From assembly GCF_036785885.1 (NCBI RefSeq), contig NC_092323.1, positions 6,828,501 to 6,892,500 of the forward strand: DNA of 64,000 nucleotides, given 5' to 3'. Numbering within the stretch: position 1 is the stretch's first letter; each line of letters opens with the position of its first letter. Below the pieces are notes generated by a model, which was not told the origin of the DNA, did not search any database, and saw only the letters and a list, made by a program, of their open reading frames with translations. Made by a program: the position numbers and the translations under genes. Positions 17,663-59,319 of the stretch are shown piece after piece. The DNA comes from Coffea arabica (Eukaryota > Streptophyta > Magnoliopsida > Gentianales > Rubiaceae).

Positions 17663-19504
17663 CATGCACGTGCATGACTTTAATCTAAAAGGCTCCTTAT
17701 CTTCACCAATCCTCCCATACACGAAATGACCAAAGGATTAACTCTAGGTGATCTTATTGGTATATCAACGTGCAATTAACACCATAGACATGTTTTATAT
17801 TCATTTCAGTATAAATAAAAAGGGATGTTTTAAATTGAAATTAACCAATAAGGTTGTAGGCCCACAATGCAGTCAATATTAGTTATATGCATTTTTACTC
17901 TGAATATATAATGGTACCAAATATTTCCAAAAAATATAAAAGAGGTGGGCTGTTGGAGACGAAACAGAAAATCAAGATGGTGTCATGGAAATAATCGCAA
18001 CTCGAGCGCCAAAGAATATTCCAAAGCTCAGTCCGCAGTGAAATGTACCTGGAAACGAAACGGAGGAAAAAAATCGCTGGCCTTTTCTCTTTACCAGACA
18101 AAGTCGCACAAAAACGTACAACCAACACGTGTTTTTTTTTCCCCAACACAAGAAGGTTTTTGTTTTTTTTTTGGAGGCTACTTATAATTTTTTCCACTTT
18201 ACTACCAAACCTAACTCTACCTCTACAACCCAACACAAGTTGGCACCTTAATGATAATAGACGTTTGTACGTATGTTTGACTTTCACTGTTAGAGCTGTA
18301 TTAATAAAAATTCTTATAAACCACTATGGTCCATATTCTAATCCATGGTGTGATTGGAGTTGAAATTATGCAAAAAATAATAATAATAATAATCTCAAAA
18401 AAACACACATGGAGACACACGAATGTAGTAGTATTATGATAAATGTCAAACGTATTTGTCGAACTACATGCCTATTGATTCCCCCATGTTGTAAGGGTGC
18501 TTTTTTTTTTGTTTTGATCACTAAGGGTGGCTAAACTTCAGAAAAAAAATCAACCAGTACGACAAATGTCAAATGTATTTGTCGAACTATAGACCTATCT
18601 ACTTCCCCAAGCTGTAGGAGTGCTTAAACTTCAGAAAAAAAAAAAAAATCGGCCAGTCCAATCTAAATCGAAATTTCGATTGAATTTTAGTAAAATGAAA
18701 ATTGGTAAAATAGAAGAATATTCAATGTACAATGTTTGGTAAAATAATTTAGAAATGAATATTGAAAATAAATTTCCTAATTCTTGATTATCGGCCGAAC
18801 TTTCGAAATTCTTATAATATACACACACAGGATATATATATTATTACTTATACATGATATAGATATACATATTACGTATTATATAATATTAAGATCTACT
18901 AATTCTTAGTGACTAGGGCCTACTACTAACTAGAACAGTAATACTTTAATGTTTTACATACTAGTGATTACTGATTAGTTAACTTATAATAGGAATTATG
19001 AATAATAATGATGATGGATGATTCTGAATACTTATGCTATTTTTCTTTCTTTTCTTTCTGCTTGGATTGATCTTTTTTTAAAAATAAAATTTTCAAATAC
19101 ATGCTACAGTAATACACAATAACCAAAAAAATATCTCATCCATACAACATATCAAAATTTTCAAAATAATTTTATAGTAAAAAATTTTCGTATATATTGC
19201 TACAGTATGGAGTTGATTTTTTGGCATATCATGCTTGTTGGAGTTGATTTCATTGAATTTTGTAGAGAAAGAACAAATGGGATCTAGTTTGGTGTAACAA
19301 TTTTTTTAGAGAAAATTAAAATTTTTTGCTTTACTATAATGATAATTCATATTTCGAATATTATCAAATTATTGATTCTTTGGCATAAATCCAATTATCA
19401 AAGACAGTAAAAAGATGTTGGTTTCGGAAGTAAAAAACTGCAAAAAATCAAATTTTTTAGTCAAATTTCCGATCACCAGTGGATGAGCAGGCCGTGTAGC
19501 ATTA
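17663..19504. other. intergenic, AT-rich, with a local repeat
   Basis: No gene recognised. It contains the direct repeat at 18438-18659 and, at about 19070-19210, a noncoding stretch with 'tgctacagtaat…ttgctacagta' words resembling degraded MITE ends seen elsewhere in the window. Confidence 0.4.
18438..18659. repeat. direct repeat, two copies of ~95-125 bp
   Basis: Copy one (about 18438-18560) and copy two (about 18561-18659) share 'ACAAATGTCAAA', 'GTATTTGTCGAACTA', 'CCTAT', 'TTCCCC' and 'CTTCAGAAAAAAAA' in order. The first copy has an extra T-rich segment of about 30 bases. Noncoding; origin unknown. Confidence 0.7.
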
Positions 19505-19513
19505 TAAACAAAA

Positions 19514-21161
19514 GAGCAAATTATCCGATTGGCCATTAAACTTTTGCAATCGTCGAGTTTTGGTCACTCAACTATTAAAAATCTGGTTTTGGTCACTAAA
19601 ATGTATAAAGTTAAGATGTGAGGCCATTCTGTTAAATTTAGCCGTTAAGTTTGCCGATCTGTCTATCCGTGCGATTTCCAAGGCAAAAGACAGGGTCAAT
19701 TTAGGAAGTTCAACGTAACATTGAATGCTTCTCTCAAAAATCGTCACTCTTCTTCCTCCCCTCATCAAATCTTCGTCAGACCCTTTTCATCCACCGTAGG
19801 CATCAGGACCAAACCCAGAACTTCCTCTCAAGCAACCCAATCTCCCCGCCACTCGTCCCCAAATTCTCCATTTGCTAAAGTTCCTTCCTCCAGTCCCTCC
19901 ACCAGCAGCACCTTTTATTCAGGTTCTGCCCCGAATACCGGCTCCGGTTCTGATTTTCAACTAAATTCGTCGGTTGGTACAACCTCCGCTTCAAGCCGTA
20001 CATCCCTCTCCAAGCCTCCAAGCCTCCATCTCTCCCTCCCAGAACACGCCTATATTTATGATTTCTCCGAAATCCGTTCTGCCACCAACAATTTTTTCAC
20101 CAAACGCTAATCCACTTCCTCCTCCTCCTCCCAGTCCTGGCGCTGCGAGCTCAACGGAAAGGACGTCATTATTTTTCAATGGAAAATCCATTAGACAATC
20201 CACGAATCTGAGCTGAGATCCAAATTATCGGTTATTTGTAAAAGCCATCATAAATGCTTAATCAAGCTCCTCGGAGCTTCCATTTCAAACATCACATTTA
20301 CTTAGTTTATGAATTTATCAGCGGCTCGAATCTTTCTACTTGTCTCCGAAATCCAAGAAACCCTGATTTCACCGTTCTTTCCACCTGGATGTCGCGAATG
20401 CAAATCACCACGGATTTAGCTAACGGCTTGAATTATATCCACACCGCAGCCGGATTCAACATAAGTTTGGTCCATAAGTACGTGAAGAGCAGCAAAATTA
20501 TTATCACTGGGCCTTCCTTGAATGCCCAAATTTGCCATTTCGGAGCCGCCGAGCTATGCTCTGAGACGGAGAGATATGAATGAGGTGAGATAACGGAAGA
20601 GGAGTTGCCGGAGCTGCGGAGGTCGAGGAGTAGGGGGAGGCAATTTGAAGGAGTGAGAGGATACATGTCGCCGGAGTTTAAGTCGATCGGCTTGGCGACG
20701 CAGAAGTCTGACATGTACGCTTTTGGAGTGGTGATTCTGGAGCTTTTGTCCGGGGAGGAGCCGCTGAAGTATAAATATGATAATGCGAGTGGAGATTATA
20801 GGAAGATTTCAATTATCAATTCAGCGACGGAGGCGGCGGAAACTGACGGAGAGGGTAATGAAACGGTGGAGGGAAGTTTTGAGGATGAAAAGGGTCTGAC
20901 AAAGATTTGACGAGGGGAGGAAGAAAAGCGACGATTTTTGAGAGAAGCATTCAATGTTATGTTGAACTTCCTAAATTGACCCAGTCTTTTACCTTGGAAA
21001 TCGCACGGATGGACAGATCGGCAAACTTAACGGCTAAATCTAACAGAATGGCCTCACATCTTAACTTTATACATTTTAATGGCTAAAATCAGACTTTTAA
21101 TAGTTGAGTGACTAAAACTCGACTATTGCAAAAGTTTAATGGCCAACCGAAAAATTTGCTC
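19514..21161. mobile_element. Pack-MULE carrying a receptor-like kinase gene fragment
   Basis: A 1,648-bp nonautonomous Mutator-like element. The terminal inverted repeats cover 19514-19792 and 20883-21161, about 279 bp each, with roughly 19 mismatches by eye (about 93% identity). Both ends read GAGCAAATT inward. The perfect 9-bp target duplication TAAACAAAA lies at 19505-19513 and 21162-21170. No transposase is present. The 1,090-bp interior is a captured, broken kinase-like gene segment (separate entry). High TIR identity and the intact duplication point to relatively recent activity. The right end lies 586 bp upstream of the squalene epoxidase ATG. Confidence 0.93.
19793..20882 (+). pseudogene. 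captured fragment of an atypical RLCK ('lysM domain receptor-like kinase 3'-like)
   Basis: Inside the Pack-MULE, the plus strand encodes a Ser/Pro-rich N-terminus and YDFSEIRSATNNFFTKR. After a frame change it continues with YLVYEFISGSNLSTCLRNPR, STWMSRMQITTDLANGLNYI, KSSKIIITGPSLNAQICHFG and GYMSPEFKS, then [20 protein letters not shown]. These are the hinge, catalytic and substrate-binding parts of a plant receptor-like kinase. Where HRD and DFG are expected the sequence gives VHKYVKSS and CHFG, so the parent family is catalytically atypical. The best remembered match is the intronless family represented by At3g57120. At least one frameshift and an in-frame stop (TGA at 20581-20583) break it, so no full product is possible. 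The lack of introns suggests capture from an intronless parent. Confidence 0.8.
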
Positions 21162-21170
21162 TAAACAAAA

Positions 21171-21747: not shown

Positions 21748-25889
<4,142 letters not shown>

Positions 25890-26801: not shown

Positions 26802-28997
26802 CTATGATCTGATCCAACTTCTTCCAGGTTGCTTCATCACTCCCAATTTCTTAATCAATTCCCGCACATCAGCAGACTCTGTCCATTTTCCTGCATCTGC
26901 ATAGATTTTTGATAGAAGCACATAAACTGCAGGATCATGCTTTTCAGTTTGAAGCAAGAAGCCAGCAACTACTCTTCCTAATCTCAAGTTACCATGAGCT
27001 GCACAGGAACTAAATAATGTCCACCAGACACCTGAATTTATGTCAACATGCTTGCTGCTTATTAATCTTTCGGTCTCATCAAGGTAACCTGCTCGACCTA
27101 GAATGTCAATGAGGCAAGAGAAGTGGTCTACATCTGGTTCAATACCATAAGTACTGACCATGGAGTTAAAAATTCGGCAGCCATCATTGACTAAACCTGA
27201 ATGGCTACAAGCTGAAAGAACTGCAGTAAAGGTAGCCTCATCAGGTTTAGTGTCAGAATCTTGCATCAGCTCAAAGCAACGGACACCTTCCCTACCTTCT
27301 CCATTTTGTGCATATGCAGATATCATGGAATTCCATGAAACTGTGTCTTTTGAAGTCATTTTATGGAAGATCCTCAAAGAAGAACACAAATCACCACACT
27401 TTGCATAAAGAGTAATGAAAGCATTATTCAAAGATGTCTCCAAAGAATAATGAACTTTGAGTGTGTAGGCGTGCACCTGTTTTCCATGCCGCAGAGCTGA
27501 AATGCTGGCACAGATGTTCAGAACAATGCTGAGAGTAAAAATGTTAGGAATAAATCCTGACAACACAAGCACTGAAAATTGCTCCAAACCCTGGACAGGA
27601 AATCCATTCAATTGATACCCGGATATTAAAGTATTCCAGGATATCAAATTTTTGGTGTTCATTGTATAGAATAATCTGTAGGCCTGGTTAATGTAACCAT
27701 GCCTGGAAAATGCTGAAAGCAACGCATTGGAAACTTCGACTTTCAAAAGTAGAGCGTTTTTCACAACAGCAGCATGAATCATCTCAACATTCACTACTGA
27801 CTCTGAGCTTACTAGTAAGCTTCCAATTGTGAACTCATCTGGTTTCGCCCCTTCTCTCTGCATATGAGAATAGACTAAGATAGCCTCTCTGCCCAAATTC
27901 TCATTAGCATAGCTTGTTATCATGGTGTTCCACGACACATTATCTTTCTCTATTAGTCTCTCAAAAACCACACGAGCTGCATTTAAGTTCCCACAGTTAC
28001 TATACATTGTTATTGCTGCATTACTCACAGAAGTACAATCTTCAAAACTCATCTTTATCGCTTGTGCATGCACTTGAATAGCATCCCTTAAACAATAAGA
28101 GGAACTCATTATACTAACAAAACTCAACTCTGTAGGCCATAGACCAGCACTTTGCATATTCTTAAACATTAGAAATGCATCCTCCTTTCTTTCCATGCTG
28201 ACTAGACCAGCTATCATTGCATTATAAGTTATCTGATCATGCACAATACCTTTTTCTTCTTCAAAAACTCCATGAGCATCACCAATCCTTCCGCATGCAA
28301 AATACATTGTAAGCAAAGCATTAATCACCGAAGTTTTAGCTAGAAGTCCAGACTTGATAACCAAAGAATGCACTTGCAATCCAAAGTCCAACAACTCCAA
28401 AGAACAAAGACTCAAAACACTAGCCAAACTATAATTATCACGTCCAACACCCAAAGAATGCATCTTCTGGAACAATCTGAATGCAATCTCATCAGACCCA
28501 TTTTCTGCACACCCTGTGATCATCGCATTCCAAACAGCAACATTTCGTTGTGGCATTTTATCAAACATCTGACAAGCATATTCAACGTCCCCGAGCTTTG
28601 CACACGCAGATAACAATGTTGTCCATGAATAATCATCTGGGCTTTCAATTTCATTAAAAACCCTTTTCACTGAACTCAAGTCTTGTGATTTTGCATAAAC
28701 CAAAAGAAGAGTATTTGAAACGTGAGGAAAGAAAATGAGCCCGGCCCGAATGGCATTAGCATGGAGCTGGTTGCCAGTGCTCCTGTCCCGGAGGTTGGCG
28801 CAGGCTGTGAGGGCGGCGGAGAGGGTGTAATGGTCAGGTCTGAGATGTGGGGACGAATTAATTTGGCTGAATAGTAGGAGGGCGCCAGCATATTGCTCGG
28901 AACGAGTGAGTTTTATAAGCTGGCGGTTGAGTTTGATTAGTTTGTTGGCGCAATTCCCACTTATGGTGGTAGTCAAGAAGCCTACTCCTCGTAACAT
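26802..28997 (-). CDS. PLS-class pentatricopeptide repeat protein (At3g49740-like)
   Basis: A single intronless frame of 731 residues, as usual for plant PPR genes. Tandem 31-36-residue repeats fill it, with repeated signatures such as VSNTLLLVYAK, DDYSWTTLLSACAKLGDVEYA, VAVWNAMITGCAENG, TVSWNSMISAYAQNG and CSHSGLVNDG. A C-terminal E-type region follows (VDHFSCLIDILGRAGYLDE, GVWWTLFSSCAAHGN, VYVLLSKIYADAGKW, PGRSWIRS). No DYW deaminase domain is present. Such proteins bind organellar RNA in a base-specific way and usually serve C-to-U editing, recruiting a DYW partner. The N-terminus is Thr/Asn/Lys-rich, compatible with a mitochondrial or plastid presequence. Residue-by-residue likeness to remembered At3g49740 is high, and gene order agrees. 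The RNA target is unknown. It is divergently transcribed from HflX. Confidence 0.93.
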   Translation of the reverse strand: MLRGVGFLTTTISGNCANKLIKLNRQLIKLTRSEQYAGALLLFSQINSSPHLRPDHYTLSAALTACANLRDRSTGNQLHANAIRAGLIFFPHVSNTLLLVYAKSQDLSSVKRVFNEIESPDDYSWTTLLSACAKLGDVEYACQMFDKMPQRNVAVWNAMITGCAENGSDEIAFRLFQKMHSLGVGRDNYSLASVLSLCSLELLDFGLQVHSLVIKSGLLAKTSVINALLTMYFACGRIGDAHGVFEEEKGIVHDQITYNAMIAGLVSMERKEDAFLMFKNMQSAGLWPTELSFVSIMSSSYCLRDAIQVHAQAIKMSFEDCTSVSNAAITMYSNCGNLNAARVVFERLIEKDNVSWNTMITSYANENLGREAILVYSHMQREGAKPDEFTIGSLLVSSESVVNVEMIHAAVVKNALLLKVEVSNALLSAFSRHGYINQAYRLFYTMNTKNLISWNTLISGYQLNGFPVQGLEQFSVLVLSGFIPNIFTLSIVLNICASISALRHGKQVHAYTLKVHYSLETSLNNAFITLYAKCGDLCSSLRIFHKMTSKDTVSWNSMISAYAQNGEGREGVRCFELMQDSDTKPDEATFTAVLSACSHSGLVNDGCRIFNSMVSTYGIEPDVDHFSCLIDILGRAGYLDETERLISSKHVDINSGVWWTLFSSCAAHGNLRLGRVVAGFLLQTEKHDPAVYVLLSKIYADAGKWTESADVRELIKKLGVMKQPGRSWIRS

Positions 28998-29771
28998 CTG
29001 ACGTTCATCTTCCCACTTGGATTGATGAAATTATGAAACACAAGTGACTTTTAGCATATTTTGTACACACAACGTAGGCTTAATCTTTCCTATATACCAT
29101 CAGTGTAAGGTTGATGTATGTCATATCAATTGAATTTAAACATCAAATTTTATATATGTGAAACGACGAAATTTTGTATATGTGATATTCATTTAGATTT
29201 TTATTTATATCTATTAGTATATGGTATTATTAATGCATAAAAGATTTATCGTTATTAAATAAAAAAAGTCCTATATATGTATATATATTAGGGAGAAGCT
29301 TGCGCTAAACGCGGGAGTTTTAACCTATGTGATAAAATATTTATTCAAATAAATTTAAAAAAAAAAGATACTAGTATTATAACTGTATGGTAACTGGTTT
29401 AATTGAAACAGTTGAAGTGCATGAAATTATAAATAAATTGGTCAAATCAACAAACTTATAAATAAATTGGTCAAATCAACAAACTTATAAAGAAAAACAA
29501 ATTTATAAGTAAAAGAAATAGAATTGTAATAGATAAGCAAAAACATCATTACCTTTCCAACAGTCATGTATAAATTCCTTTATACATATATATATAATAC
29601 TTTTAAATACCTTTCCAAAAAAAAATCATGTGATCTTTTATTTTTTACTATTTTAGGAAAAATGTCCAATTTAAGATCGACTCAACCTCTTTTTTTTTTC
29701 TAAAAAATCAACAACCTTTTTTCTTTTTAAAATCAACACAAACTTGATTATTGAAGTGTCAATTAACTGTT
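28998..29771. other. PPR upstream region, AT-rich
   Basis: Contains the PPR promoter in its right-to-left sense and a 29-bp tandem duplication at 29427-29484. No other gene. It ends at the left TIR of the next element. Confidence 0.45.
29427..29484. repeat. 29-bp tandem duplication
   Basis: TTATAAATAAATTGGTCAAA and the following 9 bases occur twice head to tail (29427-29455 and 29456-29484), with a partial third start. Noncoding. Confidence 0.85.
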
Positions 29772-42729: not shown

Positions 42730-44865
42730 TCACCAAAAGTCGGCACATGAACATTGCCCATCCTTGAAGAAGTGAAACCTGTAACAATCCCTAACAGTAA
42801 TCTCTCTCCCAGTTATGGTAGAGATAACTTTAATTGCATTGTGACAGTCCTCGCATATCCTCAAGTTTTTCACAACAAGTATTGGATCACCTTCTTTAGT
42901 TGTTAATAAAGCAAATCCAACTGCTAGCTTCTCACTGTGATACCCCTGCCTAGCTGTTTCTTCACCTTTCCACCTCACAGTCGGCCAATAACCTGCTTGC
43001 CTCATCTTCTTTGACATCTCTTCCCAAAAATCATATATCTCATTTATCATTGGATGCGAACTATCGTCTGCTAGAAACACATGGATCCTCTTGTCCAACT
43101 CAATCCAACTACACCCTGGTTTCTTCTTTAGTTGCTTATCTCGCATTAGTTTTCTAGCTTTGGCAACTTCTTCCCATCTGCCAGCACTGGCATACATGTG
43201 CGCAAGCATGACATATGGAACTGCATTTGAAGAGTCCAGCTGAAGACACTTTTTAGCTGCTTTTTCTGCTAGCTCCATGTCACCATGTGTTCTACAGGCT
43301 CTGAGCAATGATCCCCAACCAATGCTGCCAGGATCATGTGGCATGGTCTCAATCAGTTTCTCTGCTTCCTTGAGCTGGCCTGCTCGACCCAAAAGGTCAA
43401 TCATGCATGAATAATGTTCTGGCTCTGGTTCTATCCTAAATTTCTGAGTCATCATTTTGAAATATTTCTGCCCTTCTTCAACTTCTCCTGTATGCGCGCA
43501 TGCACAAAGAACAGATATGAAAGTTATGCTAGAAGCAGCCGTATCACTTTCAAGCATCTGTTCGAAAAGTAACAACGATTCCTTTCCTAAACCATGCTGA
43601 GCGTATCCAGCAATAATTGAATTGAAAGTGACACTGTTATGCTCCGGCATCTGATTGAATACCTTCCTTGCATCTTGAAGATTTCCAGATTTGGAATACA
43701 TAGCTATCAGGGCATTATCTACCGCAACTAGGTTTGATGGTATATCAGCTTTAACTACCAAAGCGTGAATTTGCCTCCCTTGTGAAGGTGATGCCAAGTT
43801 AGAACAAGCACTAAGCACACAAACAAAGCTGCAATCATCAGGACGGTGACCAGACATTTGCATCTCTTTGAAGCAAGCGACTGCCTCTTCATAGAACTCC
43901 TCATTCTGGGAACACGCAGAAATCATTGTATTCCACAGGACCAAGTCGGGGTCAGGAATTTCCTCAAATACTTTTCTGCAGTCCAAGATACTACCTCTGC
44001 ATTTTGCATACAAATCTACCAAACTACTTGCCACATGAGGGTTCTGGTGGAACCCCATTCTGATCAATTGAGCGTGAAACTGAAGCCCACCAAACAAATC
44101 CTCCATGCTTGTAAAGGCAGTCAATACGCTTGCCAAAGTAAACATGTCAACGCTAAAATCCCTGCGAACCATTTCTTGATACAAAGAGAGCGCCTTTGAT
44201 CCCTCTTTGTGCTGCCCGTAAGCCACAATCATTGAATTCCAAGACACCTCATCTTTAATTTCTTCCATCCCATAAAATACCTTCTTGGCCTCATCTATGA
44301 AGCCATTTTTACCGTACCACGTAATTAAAGTATTGTTTACAGAAGCATATGAATCAAACCCACCCAAAACAGCCAAGCAGTGCAGCTGCTGAATCAAACT
44401 GTTGTTATCAGAAGCAGCATTGACTGCCGCAGAGAATGTGAAGCCATCCATATCCAAACCCATAAGCCTAATACGCCTAAAGAGTTGAAGGGCAGGCAGG
44501 GTATCCCCGCGGTCAGCATAGGCAGAGATGAGAGTATTATAGGAAACCAGATCAGGCTGGGGAATCTGGTCGAACAGTTGGTGGGCGAAGTGGGCCAGAA
44601 ACTCTTTGGCATAAGCAGCTATAATGGCGTTGAAGGAGAAAACATTTGGGTTGGCGGTGGTGTCGAAAGCCTTGCGGGCGTCGGAGAGTAGGCCGCATTT
44701 GGAGTAGAGGGTGATGAAGTGATTGGATAGGTAGGTCGAAGGTGGTATAAGGGACTTGATGAAAAGAGCGTGGAGAGATTTTCCCGTTAAGAGGTCTCTT
44801 TGAATTATGCATGTCTTCAAAAGTTGGCGGAACTGTTGAACTAGGCTCCATGACGTTTGGTTCAT
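42730..44865 (-). CDS. DYW-class pentatricopeptide repeat protein (At3g49710-like)
   Basis: One intronless frame of 711 residues. PLS repeats cover most of it ([85 protein letters not shown]). Then come E1/E2 motifs ([48 protein letters not shown]). A complete DYW domain ends the protein, with the deaminase HSE ([13 protein letters not shown]), CEDCHNAIK and a terminal CSCADFW, so the last triplet is DFW instead of DYW. DYW domains catalyse C-to-U editing of organellar RNA; the zinc-binding and glutamate residues are present, so activity is plausible. The target site is unknown. Sequence agrees closely with remembered At3g49710, including the start MNQT. Confidence 0.94.
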
Positions 44866-57540: not shown

Positions 57541-59319
57541 ATGAAGCTGCTATCTAGGAAAGCCACGTGCAATTCCCACGGCCAAGATTCATCGTACTTC
57601 CTGGGATGGCAGGAGTATGAGAAGAACCCATACGATGAGGTTCGCAATCCGACAGGCATTATTCAGATGGGTCTTGCGGAGAGTCAGGTTTGTCAACAAA
57701 ATATCTTTTCCCTCTTTTTCAACTCTTTTACTCCACATATGCATGTGATGGTTTTTTTTTTGGGGGTAAATTTCGACTGTCATTCTTCTTTTATCTCATA
57801 CCGTCACTATTACTTTTGGCAGCTCTCATTTGATCTGCTGGAGTCATGGCTGGCTGAAAATCCAGATGCCAGTGGCTTCACGAGAAACGGGGAGTCCATT
57901 TTCAGAGAACTAGCTCTTTTCCAAGATTATCACGGCCTTCCCGCTTTCAAGAAGGTTCGTTGAAAACGATAATTTATGAAGTACCGTCACAAATTTATTT
58001 AAGTACTATGCTCAGCTGGCTCTATCTCTTATGGATGTTCAATGCAGGCGTTGGCCGAATTCATGGAAGAAATTAGAGGAAACAAAGTCACATTTGATCC
58101 CAGAAACCTAGTCCTAACTGCAGGAGCAACTTCGGCTAACGAGACCCTCGCGTTCTGCATAGCTGAACCAGGCGAAGCATTCCTCCTTCCAACTCCATAC
58201 TATCCAGGGTACGCACGCATACATGCAGCGCCATGCTACCCCGTACTTTTTTTTTCTTTTTTTTGTACACGGTATATAAACACTCTTATATGATATCACG
58301 TTGCCGGACCGGGTCTAATGATGAAACCGCATGAATAATGCAGATTTGATAGAGATCTCAAGTGGAGAACCGGAGTTGAAATCGTTCCAATTCAATGCAC
58401 GGGCTCAAACGGCTTTCGAATTACCGAATCTGCCCTTGAGGATGCTTATCAACTTGCTCGCAAGCAGAACCTCAGAGTCAAGGGCGTCCTGGTCACTAAC
58501 CCTTCCAATCCACTGGGAACGGCTCTGAGCCGTCAGGAATTAAATCTTCTAGTTAGCTTCATTTCTGCCAAGAACATTCATCTCATTAGCGACGAAATCT
58601 ATTCTGGCACAGTTTTTAGCTCGCCGAGCTTCGTTAGTGTCATGGAGGTTTTACTAGAAAGAAATCTCGCCAACACTCAAGTTTGGAACAGAGTTCATTT
58701 AGTATATAGTCTTTCCAAAGATCTGGGACTTCCCGGTTTTCGAGTTGGAGCGATTTACTCCAACGACAACACAGTCGTAGCTGCAGCCACAAAAATGTCG
58801 AGCTTCGGATTAGTTTCTTCCCAGACTCAGTATTTGCTATCCGCCATGCTCGCCGACAAGAAATTCACAAAGCATTACATTTTTGAGAATCAAGTACGCC
58901 TTCAGAAGCGGCACGCAATGCTCGTTAGAGGACTGAAGAATGCTGGAATCAGCTGCCTTGATAGCAATGCCGGATTATTCTGCTGGGTGGATATGAGGCA
59001 TCTTTTGACCTCCAAAAGTTTTGACGCGGAGATGGAGCTTTGGAAGAAGATAGTATATCAAGTCGGGCTTAACATCTCCCCGGGATCCTCATGCCACTGT
59101 GCCGAACCCGGCTGGTTTCGTGTGTGCTTCGCCAACATGTTGGAAGAAACGCTAGACCTGGCAATGCAAAGGATAAAGGATTTTGTGGTATCAACGGCCA
59201 CCAAATCTTCCAACACCGGTCGGAGTCATCATCTTTCCAGCAAGTATTCAGCCCGAAAGTCTCTCAGCAAATGGGTTTTTCGGTTATCGTTTCATCATGA
59301 CAGTGAAAATGAACGATAG
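57541..59319 (+). CDS. ACS: 1-aminocyclopropane-1-carboxylate synthase, type 2 (ACS9/ACS5 group)
   Basis: Four exons join in phase to 471 residues: 57541-57687, 57833 region start 57823-57954, 58048-58208, 58344-59319. The enzyme is cytosolic and PLP-dependent; it converts S-adenosylmethionine to ACC, the committed step of ethylene synthesis. It starts [20 protein letters not shown], and [20 protein letters not shown] and the TNPSNPLGT motif follow. The active-site block [14 protein letters not shown] has its PLP lysine at about 272. The C-terminus ends [16 protein letters not shown], the TOE motif of type-2 isoforms that lets ETO1/EOL E3 adaptors mark the protein for degradation. The MAPK sites of type-1 isoforms are absent. 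The three-intron layout is the family norm. Gene order next to the DYW PPR gene supports orthology to At3g49700/ACS9, but ACS4, ACS5 and ACS8 are close paralogues. Confidence 0.95.

Follow-up and report, generated by a model that had tools for sequence, protein, structure and literature searches.

A Pack-MULE of Coffea arabica with a decayed copy of a LysM receptor kinase-related gene and a candidate template-switching scar

A stretch of 64,000 nucleotides of the Coffea arabica genome (contig NC_092323.1, positions 6,828,501 to 6,892,500; hereafter the window) contains an element that is, judged from its sequence, a non-autonomous Mutator-like element (MULE) of the Pack-MULE type, and a well-supported case of this type in coffee. 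In our opinion, it is highly probable that this Pack-MULE bears a decayed copy of a pseudokinase-like gene and has passed through capture, spread and decay. The first-pass annotation of the window had proposed a Pack-MULE with a captured kinase gene, and this proposal was borne out by intact parent genes free of terminal inverted repeats (TIRs), by junctions shared among several copies and by an empty site on the homeologous chromosome.

The element and its insertion site

The element is 1,648 bp long and occupies positions 19514-21161 of the window, where its ends read GAGCAAATT (19514) and AATTTGCTC (21161). The inverted arms (19513-19792 and 20883-21162) comprise 280 nt each, are 93% complementary and are spaced by 1,090 nt. 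The left arm, consisting of the TIR and of R-type subterminal sequence, runs on the forward strand from 19514 to 19805, and the right arm, also of R type, occupies 20883-21161 on the reverse strand and is read inward from 21161. A perfect 9-bp target site duplication (TSD), TAAACAAAA, flanks the element on either side (19505-19513 on the left, 21162-21170 on the right). MULEs are recognised, among other characters, by TSDs of 9–11 bp (PMC3310237), and the coffee element agrees with them both in TSD length and in its long TIRs. A transposase was not found inside the element, where 1,074 of the 1,090 bp of the interior align to a parent kinase gene. The earlier description of TIRs of about 279 bp at about 93% identity, a perfect 9-bp TSD and a missing transposase is thus confirmed.

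On the homeologous chromosome C13, the matching flanks enclose one TAAACAAAA and the element is absent. A chance arrangement, in which a remnant of a local gene would lie amid unrelated inverted repeats, had been envisaged in the first-pass annotation. No support was found for it; it is refuted by the empty homeologous site, the perfect TSD and the identical junctions at other places, and its probability is practically negligible. The interior is not a local gene, because the homeologous site lacks the whole element and copies with the same junctions occur elsewhere. The homeologous stretch of C13 bears an extra insertion of its own nearby. Another stretch of about 150 bp in the window (19057-19207) has more than 30 genome matches among those listed, mostly at 84–89%, and looks like a second, short repeat insertion because of these many matches and because the C13 homeolog is devoid of it.

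A first-exon region of squalene epoxidase, a neighbour of the element and not a part of it, was recognised by eye at 21748-22107 on the forward strand. Its candidate starts are 21748 and 21772, and the element lies about 0.6 kb upstream. Among three stretches submitted, the exon at 23591-23878 was the only one with a squalene epoxidase match in Pfam, and the same exon matches squalene monooxygenase in the PDB. The placing of the insertion in the 5′ region of a putative squalene epoxidase gene is supported by these matches. Other long open reading frames (ORFs) of the window resemble, by eye, an LRR gene (1917-2882), two PPR genes (26802-29030 and 42730-44865) and an ACC synthase gene (58339-59319).

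Parent kinase genes and the captured fragment

A search of the genome (1,197,963,845 bases in 131 contigs) with the interior of the element gave 12 matches, namely the window itself, two loci without TIRs, five more copies and four short pieces, three of which belong to copies already counted; the fourth lies elsewhere on C19. With interior positions 11–1084, the two TIR-less loci (C2:46530014-46531079 and C1:52184855-52185920) share 95% identity, and the intact parent expected from the first inspection is therefore present as two paralogues. They are situated on the homeologous chromosomes C1 and C2; several sequences in this study were found paired on neighbouring-numbered chromosomes (C1/C2, C3/C4, C5/C6 and C13/C14). 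Three of five other stretches of this genome were compared with the PDB: a methyltransferase exon on C2 is almost the same as xanthosine methyltransferase of coffee (2eg5), a second exon comes close to that structure, and a third proved to be of another kind. No TIR matches were detected in the 9.5 kb analysed around each of the parental loci.

Each parent has a continuous ORF of 454 aa, which ends at TGA. Between the two parents, 10 of 1,362 nucleotides and 4 residues are different, with dN of 0.0039 and dS of 0.0186 (NG86), values that indicate constraint on both genes. Their Pfam matches are to protein kinase domains only. Hydropathy, averaged over 19 residues, peaks at 1.11, so that no clear membrane span is evident. 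In the PDB, all six of the best relatives are LysM/chitin receptor kinases, which upholds the connection with LysM signalling suggested earlier. In the alignment to these relatives, the HRD position of the parent reads HKY and the DFG position reads HFG, in agreement with the former description of an atypical kinase devoid of HRD and DFG. The best PDB relative itself has HKN and NFG at these positions. The data support the assignment of the parent to pseudokinase-like genes related to LysM receptor-like kinases, and its protein would be expected to have no kinase activity.

The captured fragment (19803-20876, forward strand, 1,074 bp) copies codons from about 26 to about 381 of this 454-codon intronless kinase-like gene and contains stops and indels. 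It takes in much of the N-terminal tail and the N-lobe, and the final 73 or so residues are missing. The kinase-like nature of the interior, noticed at first inspection, was verified with Pfam: both ORF halves are above the cut-off for PF07714 and just below it for PF00069. The extent assigned to the fragment at that time, from hinge to C-lobe, proved to be too narrow. The absence of introns carries no weight as a clue to capture, because the parent ORF itself is continuous, and this argument was dropped.

Spread, dating and decay of the chimera

Six further copies carry pieces of the fragment, which brings the places with a complete or partial chimera to seven. Copies with two arms are located on C3, C2 (52.65 Mb, C2b), C14 (8.53 Mb, C14b) and C20. 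The C22 copy comprises a single arm with the later portion of the fragment, and a chimera on C19 (C19:43454343; L037 / L041) contains only its first portion, after which other sequence follows. The end matches of this C19 chimera are 280 bp at one side and 201 bp at the other.

The left junction is common to the window copy, C3, C2b, C14b and C20, and the right junction to the same five copies and C22; C2b, C14b and C20 have an internal deletion in common. A perfect 9-bp TSD at the exact ends was found in two of the five complete copies (window and C2b), while the TSD of C3 has one mismatch, that of C20 is a perfect 9-bp one with a 1-bp shift, and C14b, with its altered left end, has none. Copies with the same junctions stand at sites with different TSDs and flanks, which indicates that the element moved as a unit. 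Because the junctions are the same wherever they are readable, a single capture event with subsequent spread of the chimera by transposition is supported.

Within the captured part, the parents differ from each other at 8 sites, and the copies side with the C2 parent at 5 of these and with the C1 parent at 3. At all 8 sites, the copies agree mutually where letters are present; the one site at which C22 differs lies before its captured part. As the copies match neither modern parent throughout, the simplest reading is that the capture most likely predates the divergence of the two subgenomes. For the split of C. canephora and C. eugenioides, 4–6 million years are given (PMC11018527). The insertion in the window is younger than the subgenome split, if dated from the empty C13 site with its single TAAACAAAA, and such an insertion in one subgenome only, after the split, is supported. 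Exact excision from C13 is a possible but less simple alternative to later insertion. Among the copies, this empty-site comparison concerns the window insertion alone.

Scored at the positions at which the parents are identical, the window copy carries 43 substitutions in 1,055 sites (4.1%), and the corresponding values are 56/1,050 for C3, 58/980 for C2b, 62/980 for C14b, 69/981 for C20 and 50/700 for C22. In the window copy, C>T and G>A account for 30 of the 43 substitutions versus 2 for T>C and A>G; the share of C>T and G>A in the other five copies is 59–68%. This pattern fits a neutral, methylation-like decay of the copy. It might be supposed instead that the element is a gene under selection, which makes a functional truncated protein, as some captured fragments are expressed and bear signs of selection according to a review (PMC13317346) and the present one retains its kinase Pfam matches. 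However, in-frame stops and indels interrupt the fragment, and the substitutions of the window copy have no third-position excess (17/10/16 at codon positions 1/2/3), whereas the parents are constrained. Functional coding by the element copy was rejected on these grounds, and selection of this kind is very improbable.

A regulatory role of the element would be an effect added to the preferred explanation and not a replacement for it. Small RNAs from read-through of the element could dampen the parent kinases, or the squalene epoxidase promoter could be altered in one subgenome. The 95% identity to both parents, the position upstream of squalene epoxidase and the description of captured sequences in maize as siRNA reservoirs (review PMC13317346) speak for such a role, to which we ascribe a low probability.

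The TIR family, the junctions and the possible course of capture

A pattern of the 33-nt TIR terminus, with at most 3 mismatches allowed, was found in the whole genome at 135 forward and 123 reverse sites, and its reversed control at 0 and 0 sites. With 258 terminus sites versus none in the control, the arms belong to a large family. A perfect 9-bp TSD at the exact ends was present in 21 of 27 family elements examined; the remaining six include one with a 10-bp TSD, one with a 9-bp TSD shifted by 1 bp, one with a single mismatch and three with none. Four of the 21 (L025-L027 and L031) share one TSD and probably represent a single insertion that was duplicated. Three of these, L025-L027, are near-identical elements that follow each other at a step of 4,178 bp in C8:38390828-38400567, with a common TSD, and L031, with the same TSD, is about 62 kb away, the duplication including the element. 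The elements L019 (C10) and L021 (C9) are identical, have identical 20-bp flanks on different chromosomes and show no recognisable TSD.

Other members of the family carry pieces of other genes. L016 and L018 contain a piece of a TCP transcription factor (PF03634, E 5.4e-33 for L016; L016:1993-2667), which matches C3:20768230 (98%) and C4:20805605 (97%). In these two loci (L075 and L076), the TCP domain lies in ORFs of 555 and 563 aa and there is no TIR match; for these reasons they are the likely parents, although the start of the TCP peptide was not found in them on first look. An ORF beside the TCP piece is LRR-like by eye and has no Pfam name. L032 and its relatives carry an O-methyltransferase dimerisation piece (PF08100; L032:1795-2157); the interior of L032 has matches of 85–86% on C3 and C4, and another part of it matches C5 and C6 at 92%, so that the members of this type may possibly represent a double capture. 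The second ORF of L032 gave Pfam PAM2 only, below the cut-off, and no Pfam family was obtained for the captured pieces of L013, L037 and L012 or for the 77-aa ORF of L016.

A genome search for the MULE transposase (PF10551) resulted in 150 scored places of 2,147 candidates, a number too large for any one of them to be singled out as the partner. When 55 hand-picked places of these 150 were compared with 100 listed places of the 258 termini, the nearest transposase was 22.7 kb from a TIR, and an autonomous partner with the same TIR was not found among the places compared. In three long TIR-bounded regions (L043, L044 and L045, the last ending on the right within L046), inspection by eye of the ORFs of at least 120 aa revealed no transposase. 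A retrotransposon polyprotein ORF of 1,808 aa within one of these regions (L045:2166-7589) is apparently a nested insertion.

The arms of the kinase elements have a peculiar composition. In eight other family members, the two arms resemble each other over their outer 201 bp (0.83–0.97), and at positions 209–278 the L and R arms of the same element have an identity of only 0.23–0.38. At these inner positions, the arms of the kinase elements have mean identities of 0.81–0.92 to R arms versus 0.32–0.35 to L arms, and both arms are of R type in all four kinase elements typed (window, C3, C2b and C20; C14b was left out). Alignments with the 280-bp query extend over 276–281 bp at both ends in the five complete kinase copies. 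In each of 21 kinase-free two-ended loci, which were the best matches to this query and include several near-identical copies, one end matches over about 280 bp and the other over at most 209 bp, and the longest arm match in a further set of loci is 228 bp. Double R arms were thus seen only together with the kinase capture among the members examined, which make up a minority of the 258 termini.

At the left junction, the arm continues through GGCATCA, a reading also present in the L012 and L025 R arms, and joins the parent at TCA (19803-19805), a 3-nt microhomology shared by the arm and the parent gene. At the right junction, where the parent reads GAAG, there is a filler of repeated right-arm sequence (20873-20885, forward strand). 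In the C3 copy this filler is exact: the 13 letters GAAGATTTGAGGA recur in the right arm at an offset of 28 nt (element positions 1350 and 1378). In the window copy, the repeat departs from this at a single place, with T for A. The chance of a given 13-mer in the arms is about 8e-6 by a simple count worked out post hoc. Chance can produce microhomologies of 3–4 nt, but hardly the 13-nt repeat.

The 13-nt arm repeat, the TCA microhomology and the R-type sequence in both arms fit template switching during repair or replication, which we infer as the mode of capture. In this process, synthesis would run inward from an R-type arm, jump at the 3-nt microhomology TCA into the kinase gene, copy about 1.07 kb of it and jump back at GAAG into an R-type arm; a slip of 28 nt at GGA would leave the 13-nt repeat, and synthesis would then run out to the terminus, giving an element with both arms of R type. 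Later movement would depend on a MuDR-type transposase supplied in trans. The order of these steps is a reconstruction, and a single end product does not reveal in which direction and when the templates were switched; both arms could have been of R type already before the capture. Whether the capture itself rebuilt the element, with one arm type templating both ends, the inverted repeats lengthening from about 200 to about 280 bp and the 13-nt scar arising, is a question on which our judgement is almost evenly divided, with a slight inclination against.

Capture through neighbouring insertions (the Catoni/Gisby model, described for Pack-TYPE elements in PMC8903248) deserves comparison with template switching. 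Here, two elements with their R arms outward would flank a segment, their inner parts would be deleted and the outer ends would be mobilised, likewise yielding two outward R arms. Deletion repair can leave microhomology and templated fillers. However, the surroundings of both parents are free of TIRs over 9.5 kb, and since the breakpoints lie within one coding exon, two insertions inside the gene followed by deletions would be needed. A parental allele with paired elements, now lost, is conceivable; on the whole, we consider this course of events unlikely.

The kind of element described here is already known. The Pack-MULEs of rice (Jiang et al. 2004) are likewise non-autonomous MULEs with TIRs, a TSD and a host gene fragment, without transposase and with parents elsewhere in the genome; unlike them, the window element comes from a eudicot, coffee. 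As regards the earlier remark that Pack-MULEs are less documented in eudicots, the table in PMC3310237 gives counts of 46 for Arabidopsis, 220 for tomato, 2,853 for rice and 276 for maize. Tomato PM-ZIBP, the subject of that paper, is another multicopy Pack-MULE of a eudicot; it has tandem TIRs, whereas the coffee element has single arms, the inner 70 bp of one arm type at both ends and a filler copied from the arm. The PM-ZIBP paper discusses replication slippage in arms, mentions acquired sequence in extended TIRs and regards the way in which MULEs acquire sequences as not yet understood. Pack-CACTA and other Pack-TYPE elements (PMC8903248) are also TIR elements with gene fragments and no transposase; their authors argue for capture via neighbouring insertions, whereas the coffee junctions, as we read them, fit template switching better. 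The animal Pack-TIRs, for which gap filling and FoSTeST were proposed (PMC8277862), similarly have microhomology at breakpoints and became multicopy in some cases via later transposition. The coffee case differs from them in being a plant one, and the same paper considers it worth exploring whether its template-switching models hold for plant Pack-MULEs. A Mutator element at a homoeologous exchange is mentioned in a coffee genome paper (PMC10805892), and no description of this family or of a coffee Pack-MULE was found among the literature surveyed by title or by the beginning of the abstract.

In this family, the parents are still intact, an empty site is available for comparison, the subgenome split provides a relative date and several copies have a readable junction scar in common; the value added to what is known of Pack-MULEs consists in a relatively dated, sequence-resolved capture. 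If the proposed course of events is true, the coffee element would be a sequence-resolved plant case of capture by template switching and would point to a route by which long TIRs may arise.
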